Shown: one piece after another, positions 5,151 to 41,264 of the stretch | Layout of the letters: the number at the start of each line of letters is the position of its first letter | Numbering within the stretch: position 1 is the first letter of the stretch | Assembly: GCF_900176005.1 (NCBI RefSeq) | Contig: NZ_LT838272.1 | Coordinates: 3,057,587-3,121,586, forward strand | Length of the DNA: 64,000 nucleotides | DNA from: Thermanaeromonas toyohensis ToBE | GTDB taxonomy: Bacteria > Bacillota > DSM-521 > Neomoorellales > Neomoorellaceae | Reading direction: 5' to 3' | Made by a program: the position numbers and the translations under genes | Notes under the pieces: model-generated | What the model saw: only the letters and a program-made list of their open reading frames with translations | What the model was told of the DNA's origin: nothing | The model's database searches: none

Positions 5151-8100
5151 TTAGGCCCCCTTCTTCTGCTTTATCTCCTCTGCCATAACTTTAAGCATCC
5201 GATCCTTCATAAGCATAAGGAGGGCCGGGAGCACAGCAGGGAGCACGTTGTCCATAACTATGGGCAGCATCTCGGGAAGGAGCTTACACATACTGGGCGG
5301 CATATTGGGCATTTTTCTTTCCATGATTTTCTGCACGTCGGGTAGCATCTTGGGCAGCATCAGGGGCATCATTTTAGGCATCATCTTGGGCATCATGCCG
5401 CCAGCAGCTTTAAGCATTACATCCTGCAAGGGGCCCGGCATTTTCTTCATGGCGTTCATACCAGCTTTAAAGGTAACAGGCAGGTGCCCGAACATACCCG
5501 GCATGAGTTCCGTCATCATCTCGACCATGCCGTCCAGGCTCATACTTTGAATGGCCGTGGCAAAAACAGCCCACATTTCATGGACAATAGGTGTGGGATC
5601 TTTTACTTCATAGCCTAAGGCTTCTGCTACTAGATTGCTAAAATCCCGGATCTGTACTGGTATATTATTGCTCCGCGCACCAACCCGGAGCTGGAACTCG
5701 CAGCACGGGCAGGTAGTGATGATAGTTTCGGCCCCGATCTCCTGGGCCTCTTTAAGCCGCTGGCCAGCGATGATGTCCGAAGTAGGCGGCTCACCGATCC
5801 TGGTCAACACGCTCCCACAGCAGCGCCCGTTTTCCCGGTTAGAGACCATCTCCTGGAATTCCACTCCTGGGAGGGAGCGTAGCACCTCCCTCGGCGGGTC
5901 GTAAATCCCACCGTGGCGGCCTATATGGCACGGGTCGTGCCATGTGATTTTAAGGTTCAAAGGCCGTTTGAACTGTAAACGACCTTCCCGGACCAGATCG
6001 GCGGTTACCTCGGTAATATGCTTAATTTTCACTTTCCATTCCAGGCCAAGCTTGGGAGCCCACTGGGCATAGTAATGGTGCAAGGCCACCCAGCATCCGG
6101 GACAGGAGACAATAAGGGTCTTAACGCCTCGCTTCTGCAATTCGCTAATATTATGCCTTACAGCCTGCTCGAACACCTCCCATTTTCCGGCCACCAAGAA
6201 GGGCACTCCGCAGCAGGCTTCATCCTTGCCCAGGTAGGTGAAGGGGACTTGACCGTCCCGCAAGATCCGTACAGCATTCTCAGCTATATCGGTTTCTACG
6301 TAGGATGCCGTGCAGCCCGCCCAGTAACCTATTTCTGCTCTGTCCAGGACCTCGACGTCACCCGGCACCCAGGCATCACGGTCTTGGCGGAAGTTGGCCC
6401 AGATGTTGTGCTGGAGCCTGAAGGACGCGCCCATCATTTCAAAGGCCGGGAAGGTAGCGTAACCCTTTTCTTTAATGAGCACACCCCTCAGATCATCCCA
6501 TAATTCCTGGATGGGTATATTAACCTGGCATACCGGATCGCAGCGCTTGCAGGTAGTACATAAAAGAAAAGTGTTTACCAGATCCTGCGTAAGCTCAAGC
6601 TTTCCTTCGGCATACTTACGCAGAAGATACCACTTGCCCCGCGGCGAAGCGCTCTCCCACCCGCGTCCGCCGAAAAGGGTACACACGTTGCGGCAGTAAC
6701 CGCACTGGGCACAGGCATAGGCTTCATATAGAATATGCTTGGGCAGGGCCCGGGATTCCTTAGGCTTTTTAGGAGCCAAGTTTTCGGCCAGACCCAGCGC
6801 TGACCGAGTGAAGCGAGCCATCTTCAGGGCCAAGCGCAAGGCGCTCTTGTCTGCACCTAAGATCTTGTCTGGATTAAATAAGTTCTGCGGATCGATTTGC
6901 TTCTTGTAAGCCTCCAACCGCTTTCTCTGGGTTTCTCCTAAAATTTCCCCTGCCTGATCTCCAAAGAAAAGTCCTAGGGAATAAACCCGCCCCCCATATT
7001 TCCGAGCAAGGTCCGCTACGAACAGAGACTTGCTGTACCCTATGGTATAAGCCAAGGTTCTCTCGTCCGCGTCTAAGAACCCCAAGATGGTAACTGTCCC
7101 GTCGGCAATTAAGGTGCCTTCCAAGGCGAGGCCCTGGATGTTTTTCTCAACCTCTTGTAAGAAACCCTCTAGGTTCCCCAGGGGTACGATAGCTTCGCTT
7201 GGGATCAGGGAGGGGCCTAGACGTTTAAGCCGCATAGGGTAAAATCTTTCTTCCCACTCATGCTGGGCTAAGTCCTCGCTGAGAAGCTTGCCATGGTAAG
7301 CCCGGGCCAGAGCTTGGGCTTTCGCTCTCACTTCCCTTTCCCGCTTCCTGGGGTACACTACCAGGACCAAGGGCTGTTGATGGGGGAACTTCTCCTCCTT
7401 TAGGGCCTGCTGTTTCTTGGTAATAAATTCAGGGCTGCTGAAGGAAACATGCCAGGCAGGGAGCCTTCCGTTAATAAGGGTTTGTAAAAAGGCCAGAAGT
7501 TCCGGCCTCCCTGGGAAAGAGAAGAGCAGAGGCACATCCTCATCAGCCTTCCGGCACTTTAAGGTAATGCTGGTAATGAGCCCTGTTATCCCCTCTAGAC
7601 CGCATATAAGCTTGAGGTCCGAACCGGAAAACTTAGCTATCTCCCCGGAAGGCAAAATGGCTTCTACAGCTACTACGTTTGCACCAATAACCCCGTACTC
7701 GTAGCTACCGATGCCTACCCCACCTTCAGCCACCCATCCTCCTACTGTGGAGCCGGGTGCGCTGGTAGGATATAGGCGCAAAGCTAAGCCGACCCTACGC
7801 AAAACCTTTTCCAAGTCTTGCCAGACTACTCCGGCCTGTACTGTAACCTCCTCCTTTTCGGGGTCAACCTGTAATATCCGGTTAAACCGCGAAAACTCAA
7901 GTACCAAGCCCCCTCTCGTAGGAACAGCACCGCCGTATCCGCTGGTCCCTGCCCCCCGAGGCACTATGGGGAGGCCATTTTCCTGGGCCACTCGGACTAT
8001 AAACTGGACTTCCTCCACGGTTTCTGGTTGCACCACGGCATCCGGCAAGGTCTTAAATAACCTGGTTACCATTTCCGGGAGCGAAGCTACATCATGGCTA

Positions 8101-8174
8101 TAAAGTAGCCTTTCGGACTTAGTGAAAGTTATCCTCTGACCAAACTGGTTGGCAAGCAAGCTTTGCCAGTGCAT
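5151..8174 (-). CDS. FAD-linked oxidase fused to GlpC-type Fe-S/CCG reductase, with Met/Pro-rich C-terminal tail
   Basis: A 1007-residue fusion. Residues ~40-210 are an FAD_binding_4 domain of the GlcD / D-lactate dehydrogenase type (VPRGAGTSGYGG), followed by its oxidase C-terminal domain to ~450. Two 4Fe-4S clusters follow near 495-560 (CAQCGYCRNVC, CTTCKRCDPVC). Two CCG domains occupy ~640-880 (GCTASY...CCGVPF...CPGCW; DPCHIGRHGG...CCGS...CPCCE), as in GlpC, HdrD and LutA. The family oxidises 2-hydroxy acids and passes electrons to quinone or a thiol/Fe-S partner. The last ~140 residues are unusual: about 29 methionines and many prolines, with repeats such as MMPKMMPKMMP and a basic end. 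Start ATG with GGAGG 7 bp upstream. The substrate (lactate, glycolate or another acid) is not decided by sequence. Confidence 0.9.
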   Translation of the reverse strand: MHWQSLLANQFGQRITFTKSERLLYSHDVASLPEMVTRLFKTLPDAVVQPETVEEVQFIVRVAQENGLPIVPRGAGTSGYGGAVPTRGGLVLEFSRFNRILQVDPEKEEVTVQAGVVWQDLEKVLRRVGLALRLYPTSAPGSTVGGWVAEGGVGIGSYEYGVIGANVVAVEAILPSGEIAKFSGSDLKLICGLEGITGLITSITLKCRKADEDVPLLFSFPGRPELLAFLQTLINGRLPAWHVSFSSPEFITKKQQALKEEKFPHQQPLVLVVYPRKREREVRAKAQALARAYHGKLLSEDLAQHEWEERFYPMRLKRLGPSLIPSEAIVPLGNLEGFLQEVEKNIQGLALEGTLIADGTVTILGFLDADERTLAYTIGYSKSLFVADLARKYGGRVYSLGLFFGDQAGEILGETQRKRLEAYKKQIDPQNLFNPDKILGADKSALRLALKMARFTRSALGLAENLAPKKPKESRALPKHILYEAYACAQCGYCRNVCTLFGGRGWESASPRGKWYLLRKYAEGKLELTQDLVNTFLLCTTCKRCDPVCQVNIPIQELWDDLRGVLIKEKGYATFPAFEMMGASFRLQHNIWANFRQDRDAWVPGDVEVLDRAEIGYWAGCTASYVETDIAENAVRILRDGQVPFTYLGKDEACCGVPFLVAGKWEVFEQAVRHNISELQKRGVKTLIVSCPGCWVALHHYYAQWAPKLGLEWKVKIKHITEVTADLVREGRLQFKRPLNLKITWHDPCHIGRHGGIYDPPREVLRSLPGVEFQEMVSNRENGRCCGSVLTRIGEPPTSDIIAGQRLKEAQEIGAETIITTCPCCEFQLRVGARSNNIPVQIRDFSNLVAEALGYEVKDPTPIVHEMWAVFATAIQSMSLDGMVEMMTELMPGMFGHLPVTFKAGMNAMKKMPGPLQDVMLKAAGGMMPKMMPKMMPLMLPKMLPDVQKIMERKMPNMPPSMCKLLPEMLPIVMDNVLPAVLPALLMLMKDRMLKVMAEEIKQKKGA

Positions 8175-8358: not shown

Positions 8359-11300
8359 TTATATGAACAAGTATTTATATCCCTTAAAAGCCGCCCAGAT
8401 AAGGTCCACAAGGCCTTTTTCAAGATCTGCATAAGCCTCACCAGCTGCATTAAATTTTACGGTGAACACATTACCCTCAATCCTCAGCTTAAAGACTGGT
8501 TCTTTGCCGTCTTCGATTAAAAGGAAACCGTTATTTTGACTGTTGGCAAAGTCTTCTTCATTCCAAAAGAGGGTTAACTTATCCTTATAAGGGGCACCAT
8601 CATAGGGACAAAATGTTGCACAGTTTCCGCATTCATTACACATTCCATCTACGTGAAGGATCTGGTTTAAACTCTTAAGGTTTTCGCTTTCCACTCCTAT
8701 AGCGATGTTGGCTCTATTGGGACATACCTCCACGCAAAGATTACAAACAAAACCGCACTCCAGGCACCTCTCGTGGTCTTTTTCCTGGAGGGAGTTTTTA
8801 AGGAACCCTTTTTTCTGGGTGATCTCTTTAAGCCTCCTTGTCTGGTCAAAGGAAGGCATTACCCTGCTTGATACAGGAGCCATACCCTCTTTCTCTAGAA
8901 TAGCCCTTGCCACCTTGCTTCCATCAGCAATGGCCTGAACTATGGTGGCGGGGCCCCTGAGGGCATCTCCGCCTATAAATACATTTTCTAGATTTGTTTC
9001 ATTGGTGGCAGGGTTGACGGCCACCTCCCCCCGCTCATTAACCTCAATACCGTTTTTCTTTAAGATCTCATAATCTACCCTTTGGCCGATGGCAGATATA
9101 ATGGTGTCAACGGGGATATCTTCAAACTCACCCTCTTTAGGAATGGCCATAAGCCTTCCCGAAGCATCGGGTTCGCCCAGTTCCATCTTTTGACACCTTA
9201 ACACGCCTTTAACCCAAGAATACGGGGACAAAAGCTCTTTAAGCACAGCTCCTTCCGCCAGGGCAGCTTTTAGTTCCTCTCTATTGGCCGGCATATATTC
9301 TTTAGTCCTTCTATAGATGATATAAACCTTTTCCACGCCTTTAACCCTCAAAGCTGCCCTAGCCGCATCCATGGCGGAATCCCCGCCACCTATGACAGCC
9401 ACATTTTTACCCAGCTCTAAAGCTTCGCTGTTTTTATTAAACTGTTCCAGGAATTCGAGGGCGCCTATGACTTTTTCTCTACCAGTCTTAAGTTCCAAAG
9501 GATTAGATTTGGTGGCTCCCAGAGCCAAATATACGTACTTATAGCCGTTCTTCTTTAGCTTATCCACAGAAAAATCGGGATCTATGCCTAGCTCGAACTT
9601 GACGCCCGTTCTCTTAATTAGCTCTAGGTCGTTTTCAATAGCTTCCCTGGAAATGCGGAAATGCGGAATAACATACTGTACGGTACCGCCCGGTTTTTCC
9701 TTTTGATCAAAGATGGTGACATCCAGGCCGGCCTTGGCCAGGAAATAACCCGCAGCGAGCCCCGAAGGCCCCGCCCCAATAATAGCCACCTTGGCCGGGG
9801 ACTTTGCTTCCACTTTTTTAAGTTTAGACAGGTAGGCCTGGTAACCTTCTTCAGCGGCCACCTTTTTTAGCTCGCGGATGCACACTGGCTCTTCATAATC
9901 AAGGCGGGTACATTTATAAGCACAAAACTGAGGACAAAGGGTTCCTGTTATAAAGGGGAGCGGGTTCTTTTGGGTTATGACTTCATAAGCCTCCAGGTAT
10001 CTTTTTTCGCCTACAAGCCTTATATACTCCGGAACATCCTGTCCAATAGGACACCCTACGGTACAGGGCGCCACAAAACAATCGGTCAAGGGTAAGGTCT
10101 TGGTTATCTTTCTGCCTTTTACCCTTCTCTTCTCTTTATGGTAATTAAGATCTTTAAAGGCGCTAGCCGCCAGTTCTTCCAGTTTCTCCACATCTATAAT
10201 CTCCTTCTGGCCATCCTCCAAATGATCTTCCAGCTCCTCGGCCATCTGCTTTAGCCTTAGGTAACCGCCAGGCTTTAAGAGAGTAGTGGCTACAGTAATA
10301 GGCCATATTCCCGTCTCGAAGATGCGGGCGATATTAAAAGCATCTACCCCGCCTGCGTAAGATACTTTAAGCCGACCGTTAAATTCTGCCGCAAGCTTGT
10401 AAGCCAAGTTAATAGTCAAGGGATATAAGGCCCGGCCTGACATATACATTTCCTCGCCGGGCAACTCACCCCTGGTTATTTTTACCGGCAAGGTATTAGA
10501 TAGTTTTACTCCAAAGAGCCTTTGTTGCTCATTAGCAAAGTCTTGAACCCGTTTTAATAAACCTATACCCTCTCTATATTGGAGATCGTGGGCAAAGGAC
10601 TCTTCTTTAAGCTGGATATAACTATAGCCCATTTGGTATAGGGCTTCTTTTACAAATTCATAACCTAAAAGGGTAGGGTTCAACTTTACAAAGGTATGGA
10701 GCTTCTTCTCGCCCAAAAGATACTTACAAATAGCTTCAATTTCCCCGGGTGGGCAGCCGTGCATAGTAGAAAGGGTGACGGAATTACATATATGAGGCGA
10801 AATCCCCTCAATAAATTCTTCATCTACGGCATGAAATCTCTTAATTTCTTCTTTTAAAACCCTCTTGCACTCTTGGAAAATAGGGGTATGGGAAGCATCC
10901 TTTAACCCCTCTATGAAGCTATCAACTTTACAAGATTTAATGCCTTCTAAGTTATAGCCCACGCTCATGTTAAATATAAAGGAGCGCAAGTTTACACCAT
11001 ATATTTCCTTTTCTAAAATGTGTAAAAGAAACCAGGCCTTGATATATTCTTCCAAGGCTTCTTCAACGGACAATTCAGTTGACCATTCCACATTGTAGCA
11101 TTCATCCTCGGCGTTAATGCAAGGTTTGGCCAGCTTAAGTCTATCCAATACCTGGACAGTCTTAAGTTCAAAAAACCTACCCCCACAAAGGTAGGAAGTA
11201 ACAATATTCTGGGCTAGCTGCGTGTGCGGACCGGCAGCCGGCCCAACTGGGTTTCCTAGATATTCTCCAAATAATTTAAGATAGCCTTCTCTTCTTTTGC

Positions 11301-11409
11301 GGAAGAATTTCTCCTGGGGTATGCCGAAAATAGTCCGGTATTTTTCATACTCCTCCATTACCCAGTTTAAAAGTTTCCTGAATGGGATAGGCCGCATCAG
11401 GTCACCCAT
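8359..11409 (-). CDS. ygfK: YgfK-type flavo-iron-sulfur oxidoreductase (putative selenate reductase subunit family)
   Basis: Its 1016 residues match E. coli YgfK in layout and start (MGDLMRPIPF). Residues 1-~440 form a dihydroorotate/dihydropyrimidine dehydrogenase-like barrel containing NPVGPAAGPHTQLAQNIVTS. A cysteine-rich N-terminal GltD-type Fe-S region follows (CFVAPCTVGCPIGQD). Next are an FAD fold (VAIIGAGPSGLAAGYF, ~550), an NADPH fold (VAVIGGGDSAMDAARAA, ~675), and a C-terminal 2x4Fe-4S ferredoxin (CLECGFVCNLCVEVCPNR, CNECGNCATFCP). In gut bacteria ygfK belongs to anaerobic purine degradation clusters with xanthine dehydrogenase-like enzymes. Here it shares an island with xdhABC but is a separate unit. 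I infer electron transfer linked to purine reduction or oxidation. AAGGAGG lies 8 bp before the ATG. Confidence 0.92.
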   Translation of the reverse strand: MGDLMRPIPFRKLLNWVMEEYEKYRTIFGIPQEKFFRKRREGYLKLFGEYLGNPVGPAAGPHTQLAQNIVTSYLCGGRFFELKTVQVLDRLKLAKPCINAEDECYNVEWSTELSVEEALEEYIKAWFLLHILEKEIYGVNLRSFIFNMSVGYNLEGIKSCKVDSFIEGLKDASHTPIFQECKRVLKEEIKRFHAVDEEFIEGISPHICNSVTLSTMHGCPPGEIEAICKYLLGEKKLHTFVKLNPTLLGYEFVKEALYQMGYSYIQLKEESFAHDLQYREGIGLLKRVQDFANEQQRLFGVKLSNTLPVKITRGELPGEEMYMSGRALYPLTINLAYKLAAEFNGRLKVSYAGGVDAFNIARIFETGIWPITVATTLLKPGGYLRLKQMAEELEDHLEDGQKEIIDVEKLEELAASAFKDLNYHKEKRRVKGRKITKTLPLTDCFVAPCTVGCPIGQDVPEYIRLVGEKRYLEAYEVITQKNPLPFITGTLCPQFCAYKCTRLDYEEPVCIRELKKVAAEEGYQAYLSKLKKVEAKSPAKVAIIGAGPSGLAAGYFLAKAGLDVTIFDQKEKPGGTVQYVIPHFRISREAIENDLELIKRTGVKFELGIDPDFSVDKLKKNGYKYVYLALGATKSNPLELKTGREKVIGALEFLEQFNKNSEALELGKNVAVIGGGDSAMDAARAALRVKGVEKVYIIYRRTKEYMPANREELKAALAEGAVLKELLSPYSWVKGVLRCQKMELGEPDASGRLMAIPKEGEFEDIPVDTIISAIGQRVDYEILKKNGIEVNERGEVAVNPATNETNLENVFIGGDALRGPATIVQAIADGSKVARAILEKEGMAPVSSRVMPSFDQTRRLKEITQKKGFLKNSLQEKDHERCLECGFVCNLCVEVCPNRANIAIGVESENLKSLNQILHVDGMCNECGNCATFCPYDGAPYKDKLTLFWNEEDFANSQNNGFLLIEDGKEPVFKLRIEGNVFTVKFNAAGEAYADLEKGLVDLIWAAFKGYKYLFI

Positions 11410-12375: not shown

Positions 12376-12708
12376 CTACTTAAAAATAAACCCGTAATAG
12401 TCTTTCCCTACCCCTTCTTTGACTATCCCCACTGTAGCCTTAACCTTCATACCGAGCGCGAGTTCCTCCTTATCCACCTGGCCTGCCACACGCACCCCAT
12501 TGGGGAACTCTACAATACCAAAGGTTAGCCAGGGTTTCATAAAGCCTTCTGGCAGGTTATATACCCTAGTATAAGTAACTAAGGTACCCTCTCCCTCCAG
12601 AGGAACAGGCTCAAACTCTCTTCCCCCGCATTGGCGGCAAACTAACCGGGAAGGATGGTAAAGCTTCCCACAATTTGTGCACCTATAAGCATACATCCTT
12701 TGTTCCAT
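12376..12708 (-). CDS. DUF35 zinc-ribbon/OB-fold protein, partner of the thiolase-fold protein
   Basis: A 110-residue protein with an N-terminal rubredoxin-like zinc ribbon (CTNCGKLYHPSRLVCRQCG) and an OB-fold (VRVAGQVDKEELALGMKVKA). DUF35 proteins act as non-catalytic, substrate-channelling partners of thiolase-fold enzymes, in the archaeal thiolase/HMG-CoA synthase complex and in the steroid side-chain aldolase Ltp2-ChsH2. The gene starts 2 bp after the thiolase stop and is last in the GNAT-thiolase-DUF35 operon. Its ribosome-binding site lies inside the thiolase 3' end. The tight coupling supports a physical complex. Confidence 0.9.
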   Translation of the reverse strand: MEQRMYAYRCTNCGKLYHPSRLVCRQCGGREFEPVPLEGEGTLVTYTRVYNLPEGFMKPWLTFGIVEFPNGVRVAGQVDKEELALGMKVKATVGIVKEGVGKDYYGFIFK

Positions 12709-12710
12709 AC

Positions 12711-13904
12711 TTAACCATCCTCCCTCGTAAGAATCGTAGCTATTACGTTGTTACCGAAACCTCCGAAGTTGACAGCCAAGGCATTTCTGGCTCTCTCTAC
12801 CTGGCGGCCCCCGGCTTCACCCCGTAACTGGCGTACAAGCTCCACTATTTGGGAAACCCCGGTGGCTCCCAGAGGATGCCCCTTGGCTTTGAGTCCCCCA
12901 GAAGTATTGATAGGAAGTTTCCCTCCTACCTTAGTTTCCCCGCGCCGCACGGCCAGATGGCCTTCTCCCTTGGGGAAGAAACCTACTTCTTCGGAGATGG
13001 CAATTTCGAGTATGGTAAAGGCATCATGCAGCTCGGCCACGTGGATGTCTTGCGGCCCCAAGCCAGCCATCTGGTAAGCCCGCTCGGCGGCGAGCCTTAC
13101 GGCCAGCAAATCTGTAGGAACTTCCCGTTCGGCTACTACGTGGGTGTCGGTAGCCTGCCCGATTCCAGCGATCCTCACCGGTCTTTTAGAGAAGCGGTCA
13201 GCTACATCCATAGCGCATAACACCAGGGCGGCAGCGCCATCAGAAACTGGACATACGTCGTAAACCCGCAAGGGCTCGGCTACATAAGGATTGATGACGT
13301 GGGCATCCTCATCTTCAGTAATGGCCTGGAAGTTGGGCACAAGGTGAATATGGGCCACCGGATTGTGCATGGCGTGCTCGTGATTCTTTACAGCCACCAT
13401 GGCCAGGTCTTTCTCGGTAACCCCGTATTTTTCCATATAAAGCCGGGTAAACATGCCCGCGAAGGCGGGGAGGGTAAGCCCATAGATATATTCGGCCTCC
13501 GGGTGAAGCATGGTGGCTACAAAATCCGTGGCCTCCCAGCCAGTGACCACCCGCATAAGCTCCCCGCCTACCACCAAAACCACATCGCACATCCCGCTGG
13601 CGATGGCCATATACCCCAGCTTCACCGCTGAGGCACCGGAAGCTGGTCCGTTCTCCACAGTTTCCGCCATAGCAGGTTGCAGGCTTAAAGTATCTACCAG
13701 GGCGGAGGCCACGCTGCTTTGGCGGTTAAGGATACCGGCCCCCATGCTGGCCACCAGCACTTGATCTACACCATGGCCTTTCCCGGGCTTAATCCCAGCA
13801 TCATCCAGGGCTTCCAGGGCGGCAGCACCCAGCATCTCTATAAGGGAGCCGTCCCACCGGCCAAATTTAGTATGGCCCACACCTACAATACCAACTTGTC
13901 TCAC
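12711..13904 (-). CDS. Thiolase-fold (SCP-x type) protein lacking the nucleophilic cysteine
   Basis: A 397-residue thiolase-fold protein (GIVGVGHTKFG at the N-terminus). The conserved histidine motif KGHPLGATG and the C-terminal glycine loop NFGGFGNN are present. The active-site nucleophile region, normally ENACASG or similar, reads ENGPASG: the cysteine that carries the acyl group is replaced by proline. Classical acetyl-CoA acetyltransferase chemistry is therefore unlikely. Together with the adjacent DUF35 gene this resembles the Ltp2 retro-aldolase group, thiolase-fold enzymes that cleave beta-hydroxyacyl-CoA (recalled knowledge). GTG start with GGGGG 9 bp upstream. Substrate unknown. Confidence 0.85.
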   Translation of the reverse strand: MRQVGIVGVGHTKFGRWDGSLIEMLGAAALEALDDAGIKPGKGHGVDQVLVASMGAGILNRQSSVASALVDTLSLQPAMAETVENGPASGASAVKLGYMAIASGMCDVVLVVGGELMRVVTGWEATDFVATMLHPEAEYIYGLTLPAFAGMFTRLYMEKYGVTEKDLAMVAVKNHEHAMHNPVAHIHLVPNFQAITEDEDAHVINPYVAEPLRVYDVCPVSDGAAALVLCAMDVADRFSKRPVRIAGIGQATDTHVVAEREVPTDLLAVRLAAERAYQMAGLGPQDIHVAELHDAFTILEIAISEEVGFFPKGEGHLAVRRGETKVGGKLPINTSGGLKAKGHPLGATGVSQIVELVRQLRGEAGGRQVERARNALAVNFGGFGNNVIATILTREDG

Positions 13905-13918
13905 GAAAGTTTACCCCC

Positions 13919-14593
13919 TTAGCGCCGGAAACCGGGGATCTGAGGATAGGTGGAAGGGAGGATCAGCTTCTTGGCTGTCTCCAGCATCTCTGGCGGCACG
14001 GGCCGGCGGCCAGTACACTTCATAGGCTTATGCTTCTCCCACAAAGCCTTGGTCAGTACATGGGTAGGCACACCACCAAGTTCGTGCCATATTTCCGGCC
14101 GGTACTCGAGCTCATATTCGATCATCCAGCGGCGGTAACCGATGGGGCTTTCGGCCACAATGTATACTTCTTCCTGGCCTAGATAATCGAAATGATATTC
14201 CATCTTAGCGGCGAAGAGCTGGGCTCCGATCCTTAGGCCTCTCTTGATGGCTAGAGTATGGTAGGACATCCCACGCTTTTCGTCTACCAGCCGACCATTA
14301 ACAATACCTACTATCTCGCCGTCGATGGTCCCTACCAAGACGTACTCATCCTTAACACGGTACCGGTAATAGCCGAGGAGTTCAGCGTACAACCGTGCCG
14401 CAACGATATCATAAAAGTCTTTTTCCACAGTTATAAGCGGCCTGACAGCTTCCAGAAGGCGCGGGATATCTTCCCGACCCACCTGGTGGACTACCATTCT
14501 CTCGCCAGAGGCCAAGGTAATATATTTGGGTGGATAAGGTGGCATAGGCGTCTCCGGTGGCCTTAGGGATTGTTCTAGCTTATCAACGAGCAT
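13919..14593 (-). CDS. GNAT-fold N-acetyltransferase-like protein
   Basis: About 224 residues when started at the ATG at 14593, which has GGGAGG 10 bp upstream; a longer frame from TTG at 14617 would swallow the ribosome-binding site. The middle shows GNAT features: a strand pair (EYVLVGTIDGEIVGIVNGR) followed by an acetyl-CoA loop-like LAIKRGLRIGAQLF. The C-terminal ~60 residues are proline-rich and unlike standard GNATs. It is the first gene of the operon with the thiolase-fold and DUF35 genes (14 bp to the next start), so it may modify the same CoA-linked substrate or protein. Acceptor unknown. Confidence 0.65.
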   Translation of the reverse strand: MLVDKLEQSLRPPETPMPPYPPKYITLASGERMVVHQVGREDIPRLLEAVRPLITVEKDFYDIVAARLYAELLGYYRYRVKDEYVLVGTIDGEIVGIVNGRLVDEKRGMSYHTLAIKRGLRIGAQLFAAKMEYHFDYLGQEEVYIVAESPIGYRRWMIEYELEYRPEIWHELGGVPTHVLTKALWEKHKPMKCTGRRPVPPEMLETAKKLILPSTYPQIPGFRR

Positions 14594-14829: not shown

Positions 14830-16134
14830 TCAGTGACTACTCGTTATCTTGGTGCCTTCTGAGTGGCTGTTTTTGACAGCAGGTATTTCTTCATTTAGCA
14901 GGCCGAGGCTGTTAAATAGATAAGCCACCAGGCTTATAACAATGCCCACAACCGCAGCCAAGGCCATACCTTTTAGCTCCACAGTGCCGATCATTATCTT
15001 GGCCCCGCTAACGCCGAAAGTAAAGACTACGGCCGAAAGCACTAGGTTAAAATTCCGGGAATAATCTACCGCTTGCTCCACTATCATCCGGAGACCGGCC
15101 GCCGCTATTACACCGAATAGCAAGATACATATACCACCCATAACTGGTACAGGTATGGCCTGAATGAGAGCCGCCAGCTTACCAACTAGAGAAAGGATTA
15201 TGGCAATAATAGCCGCACCCCGGATTACCCAGACAGCATACACCCTGGTGATAGCCATTACCCCGATATTCTCTCCGTACGTGGTATTGGGAGGCGATCC
15301 AGTAAAGCCAGAAAGCATATTAGAAAGCCCATCACCTAATAGTGATAAATGCAAGCCAGGATCCTTAACTAAGTCTCGCCCTGTAATATTAGCTGTCACA
15401 ATGAGATGCCCGATATGCTCAGCTAGGACTACCAGGGCAGCAGGGAAAACTATAGCTATAGCATTGAGGTTAAATACTGGGGCATGGAAAGTAGGTATCT
15501 TAAACCAGGGAGCATTAGCTATAATACTTACATCCACCATTCCCCAAGCGAAAGCCAAAACGTAACCTGCAATCACCGCGATAAGGACAGGGATGACCTG
15601 GAGAAAGCCCCGGAATACCAAAGAACCAAATACTCCTACCGCCAGGGTAAACATAGAAACTGTTATAGCTTTGGGATCTACCTTGTCGCCTACTAAGCCA
15701 GCCATCTGGGCGGCCACGGGTGCCAGCTCCAACCCTATTACCGCCACTACAGCACCCATAACGGGAGGTGGAAGTACTATATCTATCCACTTGGTCCCTG
15801 CCCACCGGATGATAAACGAAACGATAACAAAGAATAGGCCAAAGAATATATAACCGGACTGGGCAGCATTATAACCATATTTGGACATTATCAAAAAAGT
15901 TGGGGCAATAAAGGCGAAACTAGAACCTAGGTAAGCTGGTATCTTACCCTTGGTAACAAAACTATAAATCAGAGTCCCTATTCCGTTCATAAGGAGCGCA
16001 ATAGCCGGATCGATCTTAAACAAGAAGGGTACTAGGACAGTAGCACCAAACATAGCTAGCAAGTGCTGGAGAGAAAGAGGGATGGTCTCTAAGACAGGTA
16101 ATTTTTCCTCGATCTGGATAATCCGCCGCGCCAT
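14830..16134 (-). CDS. uraA: NCS2-family nucleobase permease, UraA-like
   Basis: A 434-residue permease with 14 predicted membrane segments of the NCS2 (nucleobase:cation symporter-2) family. PLSLQHLLAMFGATVLVPFL carries the conserved QH motif. PPNTTYGENIGVMAITRVY is nearly the UraA sequence; xanthine/urate members have a different motif here. The family signature therefore points to uracil, although the neighbouring xanthine dehydrogenase would suit a xanthine carrier. It is probably a separate transcript, with a hairpin on each side and no pyrimidine or purine riboswitch seen upstream. Confidence 0.9.
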   Translation of the reverse strand: MARRIIQIEEKLPVLETIPLSLQHLLAMFGATVLVPFLFKIDPAIALLMNGIGTLIYSFVTKGKIPAYLGSSFAFIAPTFLIMSKYGYNAAQSGYIFFGLFFVIVSFIIRWAGTKWIDIVLPPPVMGAVVAVIGLELAPVAAQMAGLVGDKVDPKAITVSMFTLAVGVFGSLVFRGFLQVIPVLIAVIAGYVLAFAWGMVDVSIIANAPWFKIPTFHAPVFNLNAIAIVFPAALVVLAEHIGHLIVTANITGRDLVKDPGLHLSLLGDGLSNMLSGFTGSPPNTTYGENIGVMAITRVYAVWVIRGAAIIAIILSLVGKLAALIQAIPVPVMGGICILLFGVIAAAGLRMIVEQAVDYSRNFNLVLSAVVFTFGVSGAKIMIGTVELKGMALAAVVGIVISLVAYLFNSLGLLNEEIPAVKNSHSEGTKITSSH

Positions 16135-16312: not shown

Positions 16313-18667
16313 TTACTGTTTACACTTTTCTTGCCAGGCAAGGTAAACCTTCTCAGCAGTTAAAGGCCCCTCTAACATCTCTAGACCAATGGCATTGGCC
16401 AAGGCATTGGCTACGGCTGGTGCAACAGAGATCATGGGATGCTCAGCCACACCTCTTGCACCATAGGGGCCATCCAGTTGGGGGGTCTCCACAAAGTATA
16501 CTTCCATCTTCCTAGGTAAATCCTTAACTGTAGGTATTTTATAATCCACCAGGTTCCTGGTCAGAAGCCTACCCTGTTCATCGTAGATTAGATGTTCGGA
16601 AAAGGCCGTCCCCAGTCCCTGAACAATACCGCCAATGACCTGCCCCCTTACCAGGGTTTCATTCAACACCTTTCCAACATCAAAGGCGGAGACTACCTTG
16701 AGTACCTCGATATCGCCAGTATTGGTGTCCACTTCAATTTCCACCGCATGGGCGCCATAGGTCCAGTCCAGCGCAGGTAGCCCCTGTCCCGTTTCCGGAT
16801 CAAGGAAGGTCAACCCCTGGGCTATATATTTACCCCTACCGATAAGGGGGCCACCTACGGCGTTACCGTTCTCATAGGTATAACCAATGGCCAGTTGGCG
16901 ATAACTCAATCTCTTGTCCGGGTGATGCCTTAAGAATATTTCTTCCTGGCCGAACTCTAGCTCGTCCTCACTACAACGCAGTATGGAAGCCGCCAGGCTC
17001 CGCATCTGCGCCAGGAGATCATCGCAGGCCCGGATAAGGGCATTCCCAGCCATAAAGGTCAGCCGGCTGGCCACTGTCTGCCAGTCATAGGGCGCTGTCT
17101 CCGTGTTGGTTTCCCAAACCATGCGGACTTTCTCCAAGGGAAGGTGTAACCGTTCCGCTACAATCTGGGCCAAAGTAGTATAGGTGCCCTGCCCATAGTC
17201 AATGCCTCCTACCAAGACGTGTACCGAACCGTCTTCATTCATCTTTACTATGGCAGAAGACGCTGTCCATGGTGGCATGGCCGGGGCTTTGTGTAATACA
17301 GCTACACCTATCCCACGGTACTTGCCTGTTTCCTTTTCCTTGAGCTTTTCTTCCTCCGACTTAACCAAGGGCCACCCAATTTTTTCCGCCACAATGGCCA
17401 AACACTTATCCACTCGGCCTGTATTTTCGTAAATTTTCTCTCCCGTAATGGTCACTGAACCTGGCTTGAGCAAATTTTTCATACGGAACTCAACGGGATC
17501 CATACCCAATTCCTTAGCAATTAAATCCCGTTGGCGCTCTATAGCCCATAAGAATTCAGCATGGCCAAAGCCTCGGTAGGCCGTACCGAAGACGTGGTTG
17601 GTATAAATGGTGTAAGAATCTATCTTCACGTTCTCCACTTCGTAAGGCCCTACACCTGAATATCCTGCCGCCCGCCCGATGTTCACCCCGTAATCAGCAT
17701 AGGCACCAGCATCCCAAAGATATTCAATTTCCTCAGCTATAATCCGGCCATCTTTAGTAACGCCCGTTTTGATTCTAGCTACCAGACCCTGCCGGCACGG
17801 TAGGGTAGAACATTCTTCTTCCCTGGTGGCCGTAAGCTTAACAGGCCGGCCGCCGGCTGCTTTAGAAAGACAAGCTACCAACGCCTCTAAGTGAATCCCC
17901 GCCTTCCCACCGAAACCGCCACCTACATAAGGTACAATGACTTCAATCTGGCTCCGGGGGATACCTAAAGCCACACTCATTAAGTCCCGAACAGCGAAGG
18001 GTGACTGCGCACTGGTCCATACCTTTATACGGTCCCCTGCTGACCACTTAGCGATGGTCACATGGGTTTCCAAAGGCACATGGAAGACCTGGGGTTGGTA
18101 AAACTTGTTCTCAACTATTAAATCTGACTTGGCAAATCCTGCTTCGACATCACCCTTACGTACTTTAAAATGATTAGCTATATTAGTTCCCGGTTTAGGA
18201 AAATAAACACCTTTAATCCAAGAATAAGTCCCTAAGTCCTCATGAACTAAAGGAGCATCCTCTTTTATAGCTTCCTCTACATCTAATACAGCGGGTAAAG
18301 GCTCATATTCTACTTCAATAAGGTCTACCGCCTCTTGGGCCGTATCCAGGTCCACCGCAGCCACCGCCGCTACCGGTTCCCCAAAATAACGTACCTTGCC
18401 CACAGCCAGGACAGGACGATCGATCATATAAAGCCCTAGTTTGTAGGGAACATCCTGACCGGTAAGAACCGCCTTCACGCCTGGCAGAGCCCGGGCTCTG
18501 CTAGTATCTATGCGCTTAATGCGCGCATGGGCATAGGGGCTAGTCTTTAGTTTGGCATAGAGCATCCCTTGGATCTTAAGGTCATGCACATAAAGGGCTT
18601 CCCCAGTTACCTTTTCTACGCCATCAATCCTGGGGATCCCAGCTCCAATTAAGCTTTGGCAGGTCAT
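16313..18667 (-). CDS. xdhA: Xanthine dehydrogenase family, molybdenum-binding subunit
   Basis: The 784-residue catalytic subunit of a molybdenum hydroxylase. It starts with the aldehyde oxidase/xanthine dehydrogenase hammerhead domain (GVEKVTGEALYVHDL) and has the molybdopterin motifs PYVGGGFGGK (~250) and AYRGFGHAEF (~360). The catalytic glutamate near the C-terminus is in ARGVAEHPM. It hydroxylates hypoxanthine or xanthine; nicotinate- or aldehyde-type substrates cannot be excluded, but the purine setting and the AYRGFG motif favour purines. ATG overlaps the xdhC stop by 4 bp, so subunits are translationally coupled in the order xdhB-xdhC-xdhA. No Moco sulfurase or maturation gene is adjacent. 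Confidence 0.9.
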   Translation of the reverse strand: MTCQSLIGAGIPRIDGVEKVTGEALYVHDLKIQGMLYAKLKTSPYAHARIKRIDTSRARALPGVKAVLTGQDVPYKLGLYMIDRPVLAVGKVRYFGEPVAAVAAVDLDTAQEAVDLIEVEYEPLPAVLDVEEAIKEDAPLVHEDLGTYSWIKGVYFPKPGTNIANHFKVRKGDVEAGFAKSDLIVENKFYQPQVFHVPLETHVTIAKWSAGDRIKVWTSAQSPFAVRDLMSVALGIPRSQIEVIVPYVGGGFGGKAGIHLEALVACLSKAAGGRPVKLTATREEECSTLPCRQGLVARIKTGVTKDGRIIAEEIEYLWDAGAYADYGVNIGRAAGYSGVGPYEVENVKIDSYTIYTNHVFGTAYRGFGHAEFLWAIERQRDLIAKELGMDPVEFRMKNLLKPGSVTITGEKIYENTGRVDKCLAIVAEKIGWPLVKSEEEKLKEKETGKYRGIGVAVLHKAPAMPPWTASSAIVKMNEDGSVHVLVGGIDYGQGTYTTLAQIVAERLHLPLEKVRMVWETNTETAPYDWQTVASRLTFMAGNALIRACDDLLAQMRSLAASILRCSEDELEFGQEEIFLRHHPDKRLSYRQLAIGYTYENGNAVGGPLIGRGKYIAQGLTFLDPETGQGLPALDWTYGAHAVEIEVDTNTGDIEVLKVVSAFDVGKVLNETLVRGQVIGGIVQGLGTAFSEHLIYDEQGRLLTRNLVDYKIPTVKDLPRKMEVYFVETPQLDGPYGARGVAEHPMISVAPAVANALANAIGLEMLEGPLTAEKVYLAWQEKCKQ

Positions 18668-19137
18668 TTTCTCGCCCCCCTTGCGGCAGCAGCTTTAATG
18701 GCCTCGATAATGGGTACATACCCAGTACACCGGCATAAATTTCCTTCAATAGCTTCCTTGATCTCTTCTTCTGTAGGATTAGGATTACGGTTGAGGAGCG
18801 CCCTCGCAGCCATGATCATACCCGGTGTACAAAAACCGCACTGTAAGGCGTTATGCTCAATAAAGGCCTTTTGCAACTCGGAAAGTTGACCATCCTTAGC
18901 TTCACTCTCAATGGTATATACCTCAGCCCCGTCCGCTTCTATAGCCAAGACTAGACAGGAGTTTACTGCTTTCCCGTTAAAAATTACTGTACAGGCTCCA
19001 CACTCCCCGGCGCCGCATCCCTCTTTTGTCCCCGTCAAATTTAACTCTTCGCGGAGGAGCCATAAGAGAGTTTTATCAGGTTCCACCGCTGCGGTAACTT
19101 CTTCCCCATTAACTTTAAGCGTAATAAGTTTCTTCAT
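18664..19137 (-). CDS. xdhC: Xanthine dehydrogenase family, 2x[2Fe-2S] subunit
   Basis: The 157-residue electron-transfer subunit. The N-terminal plant-type ferredoxin domain has CGAGECGACTVIFNGKAVNSC (~40-60). The C-terminal helical domain has CGFCTPGMI (~98) and CRCTGY (~136). Length and all eight cluster cysteines are normal. It passes electrons from the molybdenum site of XdhA to the FAD of XdhB. It is separated from xdhB by 3 bp and overlaps xdhA. Confidence 0.95.
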   Translation of the reverse strand: MKKLITLKVNGEEVTAAVEPDKTLLWLLREELNLTGTKEGCGAGECGACTVIFNGKAVNSCLVLAIEADGAEVYTIESEAKDGQLSELQKAFIEHNALQCGFCTPGMIMAARALLNRNPNPTEEEIKEAIEGNLCRCTGYVPIIEAIKAAAARGARK

Positions 19138-19140: not shown

Positions 19141-19992
19141 TTAAACCCCCTCGCTGAGAATACCCAGCACCTGACGCAACAAATACCTGGCCATAGCCAG
19201 CCGATATTCCCTGGAAGCCCTCTGGTCACTAATGGGGTCCACCTGCGCCATAACCTGTTCAATGATGGCTTTGGCTTTTTCTTCCTGCTTCAAATCTTCC
19301 CGACGGTAAATATCTAGACCCCGGGCCAAGATTGGCGTGGGAGCCATGGCTCCAAGAGCTAAACGTAACACACCTTCCTGGCTCAAGAACCCAGCCACCC
19401 CTACTTGAGCCAGGTCATGCCCCTTGATACGGGATTTTTTAAGATAAACGCCTTTCCCTTTAACAGGAGGTATCTCCACCCTCACCACGAGCTCATCAGG
19501 TTTTAGGGCATTACGTTTAACACCGGTAAAAAATTGCTCTACCGGTATCTCCCGCCATCCTGCTTGAGATACAACGACCACCCGAGCTCCCAGGACTAGG
19601 CTTGCCGGAGCCATATCAGCGGCAGGAGAAGCGTTACAGAGATTACCCACTAAAGTGGCCCGGTTGCGAATTAACGTGTTGGCCAGGCTTTTACCCGCCT
19701 GTACCAATATAGGATAATGCTCTACTATAGACTTAGCCTCCAATAGTTGATTGATAGTTACCGCTCCGCCGATGATTAGCCCCCTTTCAGGGGTGTAGCT
19801 TAACTCTTGCATCTCCGGAATCTTCTTAATATCTATCAAATACTTGACCTGCAAAACCCTATCCCTTAAATTCACAATGATATCTGTACCGCCAGCAAAT
19901 ATCCTGGCCTCACTGGCATACTTAGATTTAAGCTCAACGGCCTCTCCCAGGCTAGTAGGTCCAAAATATTCTATCCCGGCCAACTTGTGCAC
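19141..19992 (-). CDS. xdhB: Xanthine dehydrogenase family, FAD-binding subunit
   Basis: This 283-residue subunit carries FAD and hands electrons to NAD+ or another acceptor. The N-terminal FAD_binding_5 domain starts with the usual proline-containing strand and has the flavin loop IFAGGTDIIVNLRD (~33-46) and the pyrophosphate-binding ATLVGNLCNASPAAD (~112-126). A CO-dehydrogenase-flavoprotein C-terminal domain follows. It is first in the operon. A 44-bp element shared with the importer unit lies 66-110 bp before its start. Confidence 0.93.
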   Translation of the reverse strand: MHKLAGIEYFGPTSLGEAVELKSKYASEARIFAGGTDIIVNLRDRVLQVKYLIDIKKIPEMQELSYTPERGLIIGGAVTINQLLEAKSIVEHYPILVQAGKSLANTLIRNRATLVGNLCNASPAADMAPASLVLGARVVVVSQAGWREIPVEQFFTGVKRNALKPDELVVRVEIPPVKGKGVYLKKSRIKGHDLAQVGVAGFLSQEGVLRLALGAMAPTPILARGLDIYRREDLKQEEKAKAIIEQVMAQVDPISDQRASREYRLAMARYLLRQVLGILSEGV

Positions 19993-20322: not shown

Positions 20323-21252
20323 CTAAGTGCGGGCTTCTCGGTCATAGGGTTTCATCAAGGATTGGGGCGCTTGGGCACCCCGGTAAGCTAGGATAGCGAC
20401 AATAACTACAAACAAATACGGCACCATTAAAAGGAACTGCGAGGGAATTGTTTTGACCGAGAGTAAAAGGCTATACTGGAGGCCTTCAACATACCCAAAA
20501 AGTAAGCCGCCCAGTAGAGTTCTAAAGGGTAACCACCGACCAAAGATGACCAACATCAGAGCAATCCAGCCCCGTCCACCAACCATCATATCCGTATAAG
20601 TGCCTGTAAGCATCATGGGAAGGAGGGCACCACCCGCACCGATAAGCATGCTACCGGCGAGAAGAGATAGATAGCGCATAACGAATACATTTACACCCTG
20701 TCCTTCCGCTGCGCGGGGGTTTTCCCCACAAGCACGTAGCCTTAGTCCCATGGGGGTGTAAAAAAGGAATAAATGTACCAGTACAGTGATCAGGAATGCA
20801 GCATACACGGGGCGAGGCAAGTTAAATATCCACGAACCGGGAAAGGCTGCCCCTCCCTCTGTCCAGCCACCAGTGTAAGTGGCGATCTTGGGCGGGACAA
20901 AGCGCAGGCCCACTACCAGGCGGTAGAGCAAAGAAGATAATCCTAATAAGAAAACATATAAGGACAAGCCGGTAGTGAGCTGGGAAGCCCGCAAGGAAAT
21001 AACTGCATAGCCCAATATAACTCCCACCACACCTGTTGCTACCATAGCCGCTAAAATACCTATTATATTAACACCTGTGTAGTAGGCAAGTAAGAAGCCC
21101 ACTACCGCACCCAAGGCCATCATGCCTTCTATAGCTACGTTCAAAACGCCCGAGCGTTCAATGAGAAGTTCTCCCTGGGCCGCCAAGAGGCATGGTGTAG
21201 AAACGATTAAAGCTAAACTTAAAACATGCTTATCCAGCAAGATCTCCCACAT
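20323..21252 (-). CDS. Nucleoside ABC transporter permease 2 (NupQ/YufQ-like)
   Basis: An inner-membrane permease of the BPD_transp_2 family, 309 residues from the ATG at 21252 (a TTG just before it would add one residue; GGGGGGG lies 8 bp upstream). It has about eight hydrophobic segments and the family pattern ERSGVLNVAIEGMMALGA near the N-terminus. It is the last gene of bmp-ATPase-permease-permease and should pair with the permease encoded upstream. The related B. subtilis NupNOPQ and streptococcal systems import purine nucleosides. Confidence 0.88.
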   Translation of the reverse strand: MWEILLDKHVLSLALIVSTPCLLAAQGELLIERSGVLNVAIEGMMALGAVVGFLLAYYTGVNIIGILAAMVATGVVGVILGYAVISLRASQLTTGLSLYVFLLGLSSLLYRLVVGLRFVPPKIATYTGGWTEGGAAFPGSWIFNLPRPVYAAFLITVLVHLFLFYTPMGLRLRACGENPRAAEGQGVNVFVMRYLSLLAGSMLIGAGGALLPMMLTGTYTDMMVGGRGWIALMLVIFGRWLPFRTLLGGLLFGYVEGLQYSLLLSVKTIPSQFLLMVPYLFVVIVAILAYRGAQAPQSLMKPYDREART

Positions 21253-21271
21253 CAAATTGTCCCCCCCTTCT

Positions 21272-22366
21272 TCATATGGTCAAACGTTCATGGCGTAAGC
21301 TGACGGCCTCCATAAGCAAAACAATCAAAACCGCTACCCCTTGCACCATAAAAACAGCACCAGCTGGCAATCCAATACTGCGCTGTAAGGAATCCGCCCC
21401 GGCCACCAGTACCCCGAAAATAAAGCTTACCGGAATCAAGGCTAGAGGTTGACCACGGGCCAAAACCGCGATAAGGATGGCCATAACCCCATAATTGGGA
21501 GTCAGCCCTAGCAAGACGCGCTCATGCACTCCTGCCACTTCAATGGCACCAGCTAGCCCGCCCAGGGCACCGCTTAAAGCTAGAGCCAAAAACTGAACTC
21601 TACGTACAGCAATCCCACCGAATAGGGACGCCCTCCAATTAGACCCCACGGCTCGTATTTCATAGCCCAGCACAGTGCGATACAATAGCCACCAGATGAG
21701 AATAGCTGTTAAGATGGCAATAATTACGCCTACGTGGGCTCCTCCTCGAGGTAAAAGCTTGGGTAATACAGCTCCTGGGGTAATAGGAACGCTCACCGCC
21801 TCCCCTGTCAGGGGATCGTTCCAGGGACCTGTAGTTAAAAATTCCACCAATAGAAGGGCCACAAAATTTAACATAACTGTAGTAAAAATTTCATTGACAC
21901 CCCAAACCATACGCAGGATAGCAGCAACTAAAATATATAGAGCCCCTCCCACTAAGCCTGCTATAAGCACAATAGGAACCTGTAGCCACGGAATATTAAC
22001 TCCACCGACCAGGAAAATTCCTACCCACCCGGCCAAAATCGCCCCTAAATAAATCTGCCCGTCTATACCAATATTAAACACCCCGCCACGCATGCCGATA
22101 GTAAAAGCTAATGAAGCCAGTAACAATGGTGTCATTCGGTTTAATGTCTGGGCAATCCCTCCAATACTAAATAACGAATCTTTAAGGGCTGCCTGATAAG
22201 CTACCAGGGGGTTGTATCCTAAGCCTATGATAAACAACGTCATAGTCAATAACATCACCAGTAAGGCCCCACCATAAGCTAGGATACCCCATATCAACTT
22301 TCTATACGCCTCACCCTTCCTAATCACCCTAACACAAGTTCCCTGAACATTTACTGAGCTTTTCAT
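21272..22366 (-). CDS. Nucleoside ABC transporter permease 1 (NupP/YufP-like)
   Basis: A 364-residue BPD_transp_2 permease with about nine membrane helices. It has the family signature GGVFNIGIDGQIYLGAILAG near residue 95. The longer N-terminus compared with its partner permease is typical of the YufP type. The start lies 17 bp after the ATPase stop, and 16-20 bp separate it from the second permease, so the genes form one transcript. With its partner it forms the heterodimeric pore. Confidence 0.88.
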   Translation of the reverse strand: MKSSVNVQGTCVRVIRKGEAYRKLIWGILAYGGALLVMLLTMTLFIIGLGYNPLVAYQAALKDSLFSIGGIAQTLNRMTPLLLASLAFTIGMRGGVFNIGIDGQIYLGAILAGWVGIFLVGGVNIPWLQVPIVLIAGLVGGALYILVAAILRMVWGVNEIFTTVMLNFVALLLVEFLTTGPWNDPLTGEAVSVPITPGAVLPKLLPRGGAHVGVIIAILTAILIWWLLYRTVLGYEIRAVGSNWRASLFGGIAVRRVQFLALALSGALGGLAGAIEVAGVHERVLLGLTPNYGVMAILIAVLARGQPLALIPVSFIFGVLVAGADSLQRSIGLPAGAVFMVQGVAVLIVLLMEAVSLRHERLTI

Positions 22367-22383
22367 TTACACTACACCTCTAT

Positions 22384-23952: not shown

Positions 23953-23972
23953 CCTGGTACATTACCATATCC

Positions 23973-24995
23973 TTAATCCTTAAGCTCCTTTACCTCGGGT
24001 ATCTTTCTTTTGCCGCTAGCAACTTCATTAAAAACCTCATTCACCTTCTTGGCTATGTCTTCCGGAACGTTGCGTATGGGGGAAAGGGTCATGCCATTAC
24101 CTGGTCGCATCTCCTCATAACCGCCCCGGTTCCCTCTTAAGATTTCGTTAACAATACGGATGTACGGTACGTTAAAGTCAAAAAGCAGGGAGGTGGTAAA
24201 ATTGTTAGGTGCTAATTTGGTCTTATCCGTGTAAAAAGTAGTAAGCAGTACCTTTTTGTTTTGGGCAGCCTCGATTACTCCCTGGGCTCCTAGATTTAAT
24301 ATGATTATAATAAAATCCACTCCCGAGTTTATTTGAGCTTCCGCCGCCTGGCGAGCTTTAACGGGATCGTTATGATCCCCGGTAAAGGTATATAGCACTT
24401 GGGCTTGGGGGTTAAATTCGCTTACAGCCTGTTTGACTGCATTTACGCTGGCCGTAAAATCGGGTAACTTAAAACCGCTGATAACGCCGACCTTGTTAGT
24501 GCGGGTGGAGAGGGCACCTAAAACACCGTGTACATAGAATCCTTCGTAATATTTCCGCCCTATGTTCCAGACGTTTTTAGGCAGTTCAGGCATGGGGCCA
24601 GCCGTCTCCACAATGAAGGAAATATCAGGAAATTGCTTGGCCAGTTTATCCACTGTGGTAACAAACTGTCCCCCATGAAAAGCTATAATGGAATAGCCGT
24701 CATTAATGAATCCGCGAGCCACCCGCTCCGCCTCTGCCGGAGGCACCTTCTCTTGATACTTGGTCTCTAAACCCAGCTTTTCTTGTAACGTCTTGGTTAC
24801 TTGGTACCCCAAAAAGTTATAATCAGCATCTTCCACTGCACCTGGTAATATCATAGCCATTTTAACTTTTTGTGCCTTATTTTGTTCAGGCGCACTGGTT
24901 TTTTGTTCGCGACCGCCGGTAGCACATGCCGTTAATAGTAAACCTATACCCAAACAAACTAGCAGGGCCAATTTAAACTTTAATCTTTTTAACAT
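23973..24995 (-). CDS. BMP-family nucleoside-binding lipoprotein
   Basis: The substrate-binding protein of the importer. From the ATG at 24995 (GGGGG about 6 bp upstream) it has 340 residues and begins with a lipoprotein signal: positive MLKRLKFK, a hydrophobic stretch and lipobox LLTAC. The mature part has the BMP pattern KVKMAMILPGAVEDADYN and VGVISGFKLPDF. It should be anchored outside the membrane and deliver purine nucleosides to the permeases. The frame stays open for 61 more codons upstream, but that part encodes an amidohydrolase fragment and is not part of this protein. Confidence 0.9.
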   Translation of the reverse strand: MLKRLKFKLALLVCLGIGLLLTACATGGREQKTSAPEQNKAQKVKMAMILPGAVEDADYNFLGYQVTKTLQEKLGLETKYQEKVPPAEAERVARGFINDGYSIIAFHGGQFVTTVDKLAKQFPDISFIVETAGPMPELPKNVWNIGRKYYEGFYVHGVLGALSTRTNKVGVISGFKLPDFTASVNAVKQAVSEFNPQAQVLYTFTGDHNDPVKARQAAEAQINSGVDFIIIILNLGAQGVIEAAQNKKVLLTTFYTDKTKLAPNNFTTSLLFDFNVPYIRIVNEILRGNRGGYEEMRPGNGMTLSPIRNVPEDIAKKVNEVFNEVASGKRKIPEVKELKD

Positions 24996-41216: not shown

Positions 41217-41264
41217 TCCTCCCGGAAGTTTAGTCCTTTATACCTTACATTTTATGCGTGGGGT

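Follow-up and report, generated by a model that had tools for sequence, protein, structure and literature searches.

Here we have examined a 64,000-nucleotide stretch of the Thermanaeromonas toyohensis ToBE genome (contig NZ_LT838272.1; hereafter the window) harboring three adjacent genes for a GNAT-fold protein, a thiolase-superfamily protein lacking the catalytic cysteine, and a DUF35 protein. We consider it fairly probable that this triplet forms the last module of an oxidative pyrimidine pathway that operates anaerobically and conserves energy. The reactions predicted for the triplet are formation of malonyl-coenzyme A (malonyl-CoA) by the GNAT-fold protein and its decarboxylation to acetyl-CoA by the thiolase/DUF35 pair. 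That the Cys-less thiolase removes CO2 from malonyl-CoA is likely, and is supported by the modules that replace the triplet in sister operons.

To compare these end modules, we used 68 loci carrying both the ring hydrolase and AllG, a set that includes added AllG loci of Bacillota; the thiolase is missing from nearly all of these genomes. The end module is GNAT, thiolase and DUF35 in 45 loci; a GNAT homologue with MmdA and a Na+-pump beta subunit in four (L123, L124, L131 and L132, from two families of one order); a nitrilase-type amidase (PF00795) in 14, where it stands alone (7), with a CoA-transferase III (3) or with both a CoA-transferase III and MmdA (4); and a complete malonate decarboxylase in one (L185), leaving four loci in which none of these modules was seen. 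The replacement modules are mutually exclusive, the triplet never being mixed with another end module (0 of 68), and none of the tested triplet or GNAT-homologue genomes contains an amidase orthologue (>50% identity). In the L123 group, a ~40%-identical GNAT homologue is accompanied by a Na+-translocating acyl-CoA decarboxylase, represented by MmdA (TIGR01117), a biotin carrier and the gamma and beta (TIGR01109) subunits, and searches of all four genomes did not find a Cys-less thiolase; this pairing of GNAT with the Na+ pump suggests that GNAT makes the thioester and that the other module decarboxylates it. L185, whose ring hydrolase is 89% identical to that of the window, carries mdcA (TIGR01110, 884 bits, cut-off 789), the malonate decarboxylase acyl carrier protein (TIGR03130) and the beta subunit (TIGR03133) above curated cut-offs, along with a gamma subunit slightly under its cut-off, a biotin carrier and a Na+-pump beta subunit. 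Because this operon holds a complete malonate decarboxylase, malonate can be named as the metabolite; likewise, that decarboxylases of (methyl)malonyl-CoA or of malonate stand in for the triplet speaks for decarboxylation rather than aldol cleavage. These decarboxylases fill the triplet's position in the operon but are non-homologous, biotin-dependent and conserve the energy of decarboxylation, whereas the thiolase module would be soluble and biotin-free.

One replacement has left a trace. L175 belongs to the same family as the window; its operon DNA is 84-94% identical to that of the window and its ring hydrolase protein ~100% identical, with an amidase in the triplet's place. Directly upstream of this amidase (~2480-2557, minus strand), 26 codons of the GNAT start survive as a fossil, immediately followed by a stop (LDKKLEQSLWPPETSMPFYPPEYTYL in alignment with LVDKLEQSLRPPETPMPPYPPKYITL, 69%, E 1.7e-6); in this lineage, the amidase replaced GNAT in place. 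In two other operons, L181 and L186, of the malonyl-CoA variant, genes for nitroreductase-like proteins of ~165 aa separate the amidase from later genes.

The active site of the thiolase-fold protein has lost its nucleophile in a conserved manner. The motif reads VENGPASG, with Pro87 aligning to the Cys of 7yvy, 6esq and 6hsj in both HMMER and MAFFT alignments, and all 82 aligned family sequences, which come from several phyla, keep NGPASG without change; together with the conserved GNAT and DUF35 flanks, this invariance argues that Pro in place of Cys is not chance. His343 (KGHPLGATG) and His293 (HDAF) are retained and invariant, with HDAF present in 82/82 where Ltp2 has YDHF and Sal has YDCY. 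There is no substitute Cys in the nucleophile column of the family alignment, while DUF35-type thiolases of the same order do carry Cys there. Cys218 (CPVSDG), the sole invariant Cys, was considered as an alternative nucleophile and set aside, as it belongs to a CPxSDG segment with a similar Cys/Ser motif in Cys-bearing thiolases. In the tree, a branch with strong support (96/99) sets the Cys-less family apart, and the Cys-bearing DUF35-thiolases lie outside; the next branch (93/99, on a long stem) is ST0096 of Sulfolobus, which carries Ser for Cys. What the original prediction had described from a single locus, namely a thiolase-fold protein without the catalytic Cys that keeps KGHPLGATG, a DUF35 gene 2 bp downstream, an acetyltransferase-like third component and a location in a nucleobase catabolism island, is borne out by alignment, coordinates, the structural model and the genes upstream (permease, molybdenum hydroxylase, ring hydrolase, AllFGH, carbamate kinase).

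Structural models agree with these assignments. The thiolase-fold protein, which scores under the cut-off of all curated NCBIfam thiolase models listed, gives an AlphaFold model (predicted local distance difference test, pLDDT, 85.3) whose best PDB fold matches are 7yvy (Foldseek E 1.3e-38), 6et9 and 4yzo, and which also matches BbsB, Ltp2 (6ok1), Sal (9myr), PhlC and TbSLP with malonyl-CoA (5ab7). The archaeal acetoacetyl-CoA thiolase-HMGCS complex (6esq), Pyrococcus furiosus PFC_04095 (7yvy) and benzoylsuccinyl-CoA thiolase BbsAB (7pxp) share the fold, KGHPxGATG and the His of the HxxF region at 28-39% identity, and 6esq and BbsAB also have a DUF35 partner; however, 7yvy and 6esq use a Cys nucleophile, whereas the window family has its Pro, its own clade, and GNAT and pyrimidine gene neighbors. 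ST0096 (4yzo; 35-36% identity in structural alignment) differs in being archaeal and in its DNTSGSG and HDMA motifs. The DUF35 protein combines a C4 zinc ribbon (C-x2-C-x10-C-x2-C, each of the four Cys kept in at least ~98% of 80 homologues) with an OB fold of the ChsH2 C-terminal type. The GNAT-like protein matches no family model in Pfam or NCBIfam (its L123 homologue reaches PF00583 at 19.1 bits, slightly under the 20.7 cut-off), and searches of PDB sequences and of plasmids returned chance matches only and no match, respectively; its AlphaFold model (pLDDT 93.5) has 210 PDB matches at E <= 0.001, with N-acetyltransferases best (top E 9.9e-8).

The triplet itself is a conserved operon that occurs in many anaerobes. 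A genome scan retrieved 388 thiolase relatives, and among the best 80 (61-88% identity), which span Clostridia, Coriobacteriales, Spirochaetes, Bipolaricaulota, Acidobacteriota, Gemmatimonadota, Verrucomicrobiota and others, DUF35 lies downstream of the thiolase in 78 loci and GNAT upstream in 75, with both flanking in 73 and the spacing nearly always short or overlapping. Of 398 genomes in the phylum of the window, exactly the same 8 carry the Cys-less thiolase and the type-1 GNAT, all of them among the 59 that bear AllG; since four of the eight come from one genus, the independent count is below eight. GNAT was not found in five of the 80 loci, which retain the thiolase (with DUF35), although L070 ends at a contig edge and a few probably derive from incomplete metagenome-assembled genomes. 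L073, L088 and L066 have the thiolase/DUF35 pair without GNAT, and AllG was not found in those genomes. In L063, from a gut clostridial genome, a FabD-like malonyl transacylase (6864-8000) lies directly upstream of a GNAT-less thiolase/DUF35 pair; we count this second malonyl enzyme beside thiolase/DUF35 in favor of malonyl-CoA as the substrate, and a use of this pair in fatty acid priming is possible. L087, L090, L091, L101 and L105, from several deep lineages, carry the triplet without neighboring AllFGH and with a glutamate dehydrogenase gene up- or downstream. A second pathway for such isolated triplets was a first reading that we abandoned, several of these genomes carrying AllG elsewhere.

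The aerobic oxidative uracil pathway proceeds via barbiturate and ureidomalonate and ends in malonate. In the anaerobic route proposed here, the pyrimidine is probably uracil, as suggested by the permease and hydroxylase annotations; it would be taken up through the NCS2 and ABC transporters, oxidized to barbiturate by the molybdenum hydroxylase, and opened to ureidomalonate by the PF04199 hydrolase, a family that includes the cyclic-amide hydrolase isatin hydrolase. AllFGH of E. coli is an oxamic transcarbamylase converting oxalurate and phosphate to oxamate and carbamoyl phosphate (PMC11326118). By analogy, the homologues in the window, where AllF, AllG, AllH and carbamate kinase are all present together as in the E. 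coli pathway from carbamoyl phosphate to ATP, would convert ureidomalonate and phosphate to malonamate and carbamoyl phosphate, the latter yielding ATP, NH3 and CO2 through carbamate kinase. Ureidomalonate is the simplest reading of their substrate because every alternative module acts on malonamate, malonate or malonyl-CoA; unlike in E. coli, the ring hydrolase, molybdenum hydroxylase and malonyl-handling end modules point away from oxalurate. The GNAT-fold protein, running acyl transfer in reverse, would then form malonyl-CoA and NH3 from malonamate and CoA, and thiolase/DUF35 would release CO2 to leave acetyl-CoA. In the sister operons, the amidase would turn amide to acid, the CoA-transferase acid to thioester and the decarboxylase thioester to acetyl and CO2, such that GNAT would take the place of amidase plus CoA-transferase, and thiolase/DUF35 that of the decarboxylase. 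The carbon balances, the C4 ring equaling the carbamoyl carbon, CO2 and acetyl.

With the Cys lost and Pro87 in its place, no acyl-enzyme can form, though His293, His343 and the oxyanion hole could still hold the thioester carbonyl and stabilize the enolate, as in KSQ ketosynthases. A malonyl thioester can be decarboxylated without a nucleophile, provided that an oxyanion hole accommodates the enolate, and KSQ domains decarboxylate after losing their Cys. They resemble the window protein in keeping the His pair, and the malonyl-thioester decarboxylation proposed here may be analogous to theirs; yet they are polyketide loading-module ketosynthases with an acyl carrier protein-bound substrate and Gln for Cys, whereas the window has CoA, Pro for Cys, a DUF35-type thiolase and a catabolic operon. 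Another parallel is Trypanosoma brucei SLP (TbSLP; 5ab4-5ab7), a thiolase fold without the nucleophile that slowly decarboxylates malonyl-CoA (PMC12329534), which differs in its YDCF motif, 24% identity and lack of operon context.

We advance more tentatively, and with slightly less than even confidence, the full scheme: a backward GNAT reaction (malonamate and CoA to malonyl-CoA and NH3, without ATP), pulled by immediate decarboxylation within a putative GNAT/Cys-less-thiolase/DUF35 complex and fed by an AllFGH-type ureidomalonate transcarbamylase, may constitute an undescribed, ATP-yielding anaerobic route from uracil to acetyl-CoA in several phyla. A literature search on barbiturate, malonamate and anaerobic uracil oxidation via carbamoyl phosphate found no description of the pathway in open-licence papers, which does not in itself prove novelty.

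Several points weigh against this assignment. The amide-to-thioester step is uphill and, to our knowledge, without precedent for GNAT. Other GNAT-fold proteins, MCD and CurA, themselves decarboxylate malonyl-CoA, so the division of labor could differ. The CoA-loop region of the GNAT protein reads RGLRIGA against the canonical R/Q-x-x-G-x-G/A, its end residues fitting but the middle Gly being Arg. A few triplets occur in genomes where the AllG search found none (some probably incomplete, many metagenome-assembled), and uracil as the start derives from the permease and hydroxylase annotations. Among Cys-less relatives, TbSLP, the nearest with tested activity, turns over malonyl-CoA with a kcat of just 0.005 s-1, and CtSal does not decarboxylate it (PMC12329534).

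The original prediction had likened the pair to Ltp2-ChsH2 steroid aldolases and suggested a carbon-carbon lyase for an unknown acyl-CoA. Ltp2-ChsH2 and Sal-Shy do combine a Cys-less thiolase fold with DUF35 in place of thiolase chemistry, and the single-protein thiolase model shares their fold (6ok1 and 9myr are among its matches). However, the window protein has His and Ala where the YDHF/YDCY motif (PMC12329534) has its catalytic Tyr and acid residues, steroid and side-chain genes are absent, family scans of the window proteins revealed no hydratase or other beta-hydroxyacyl-CoA-forming enzyme in the operon, and sister operons carry decarboxylases in the triplet's place. We thus regard retro-aldol cleavage of a beta-hydroxyacyl-CoA as very improbable and drop the aldolase analogy; the broader notion of a carbon-carbon lyase is probably right, and the acyl-CoA can now be restricted to malonyl-CoA or something closely similar. 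An ordinary allantoin/oxalurate pathway, with the triplet handling oxamate or an oxalyl derivative, appears equally remote: although E. coli AllFGH does act on oxalurate (PMC11326118), oxalyl-CoA has no alpha carbon for an enolate and fits neither biotin-dependent nor thiolase-fold decarboxylation, L185 has a malonate-specific decarboxylase, and no allantoin genes were recognized in the window.

Other alternatives keep a malonyl-like substrate. GNAT might perform both the amide-to-thioester step and the decarboxylation, leaving thiolase/DUF35 as a CoA-binding scaffold or proofreading partner. GNAT is as conserved as the thiolase, and decarboxylating GNAT folds exist, as noted for MCD and CurA; we nevertheless find this quite unlikely, as the L123-type homologue is accompanied by a separate decarboxylase, five loci retain the thiolase with no GNAT found (L063 having FabD instead), and the thiolase active-site His residues are invariant. 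Only a small chance, somewhat above that, is given to an acyl exchange like that of malonate decarboxylase, in which acetyl-CoA and malonamate would give malonyl-CoA and acetamide, and thiolase/DUF35 would regenerate acetyl-CoA, for a net conversion of malonamate to acetamide and CO2. Such an exchange would be thermodynamically neutral, and the PF01425 amidase that a Spirochaetota operon (L100, 4569-5909) carries between its ring hydrolase and GNAT genes could take the acetamide; yet most triplets have no adjoining amidase (L061 has a CN_hydrolase nearby), and the Na+-pump and CoA-transferase variants equally fit net formation of acetyl-CoA or acetate. Unlikely too, if less so, is another cyclic ureide (e.g., thymine or another barbiturate-like ring), with the module acting on methylmalonyl-CoA or another 2-substituted malonyl-CoA: MmdA family members use methylmalonyl-CoA and the hydroxylase substrate is a putative one, but L185, of the same operon type, holds a complete malonate decarboxylase and the permease scores as a uracil permease.

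The gaps within the triplet are 14 bp from GNAT to thiolase and 2 bp from thiolase to DUF35. Upstream of the triplet, on the same strand, lie the genes assigned to the earlier steps (Table 1), and distantly related bacteria such as Clostridium ragsdalei (L047) and Spirochaetae (L112) have this gene set around their triplets as well. The PF09663 (AtzD/barbiturase) profile had no match in the T. toyohensis genome, nor in the control genomes, which leaves this negative uninformative.

Table 1. Genes of the triplet and of the surrounding pyrimidine operon, with window coordinates and proposed roles.
Feature	Position	Strand	Remarks
DUF35 gene	12376-12708	minus	PF12172 (zf-ChsH2) and PF01796 (OB_ChsH2_C) above Pfam cut-off
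Cys-less thiolase-superfamily gene	12711-13904	minus	397 aa, GTG start; Pfam Thiolase_N and Thiolase_C_1; proposed malonyl-CoA decarboxylase catalytic subunit
GNAT-fold gene	13919-14593	minus	from ATG; TTG start at 14617 also possible; proposed malonamate:CoA acyltransferase releasing ammonia
NCS2 permease, uracil permease family	14830-16134	minus	NF007995, 651 bits, cut-off 477
XDH-family molybdenum hydroxylase large subunit	16313-18667	minus	closest solved relative 4-hydroxybenzoyl-CoA reductase 1rm6; proposed uracil to barbiturate
XDH-family 2Fe-2S subunit	18664-19137	minus	
XDH-family FAD subunit	19141-19992	minus	
BMP/PnrA-type ABC importer (two permeases, ATPase, binding protein)	20323-25178	minus	probably nucleoside/nucleobase uptake
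Uma2-family endonuclease gene	25509-26177		PF05685; between ABC importer and ring hydrolase
PF04199 metal-dependent hydrolase	26426-27211	minus	kynurenine formamidase/isatin hydrolase family, HVGTHLD metal motif; proposed barbiturate ring opening
AllG-like transcarbamylase subunit	27328-28734	minus	
AllF/FdrA-like transcarbamylase subunit	28781-30325	minus	NF004760, 469.6 bits, cut-off 433
AllH-like transcarbamylase subunit	30310-31212	minus	
Carbamate kinase	31202-32152	minus	TIGR00746, 415 bits, cut-off 358; proposed carbamoyl phosphate + ADP to ATP
PucR-type regulator	32306-33994	minus	

Outside the conserved operon, YgfK (8359-11409; TIGR03315, 1589 bits), a reductive dearomatization enzyme of anaerobic urate degradation, sits beside a FAD/4Fe-4S/CCG protein (5151-8174) adjoining the pyrimidine island. 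A PIN-domain open reading frame (PF01850, 11924-12256, plus strand) adjoins DUF35 and is possibly half of a toxin-antitoxin pair, and a row of signaling genes, comprising a subtilase, GGDEF/HD-GYP and PocR/GAF/HD-GYP proteins, occupies 40059-46322.

The assignment lends itself to direct tests through the natural swaps of GNAT with amidase plus CoA-transferase and of thiolase/DUF35 with a Na+ pump. If true, it would give at least several hundred proteins currently annotated as acetyl-CoA acetyltransferases a function as a biotin-free, soluble malonyl-CoA decarboxylase built from a thiolase, and would suggest that GNAT enzymes exist that form thioesters from amides. It would further fill a gap by providing an anaerobic equivalent to the oxidative uracil/barbiturate pathway, one in which acetogens, spirochaetes and gut Clostridia gain ATP via carbamoyl phosphate.

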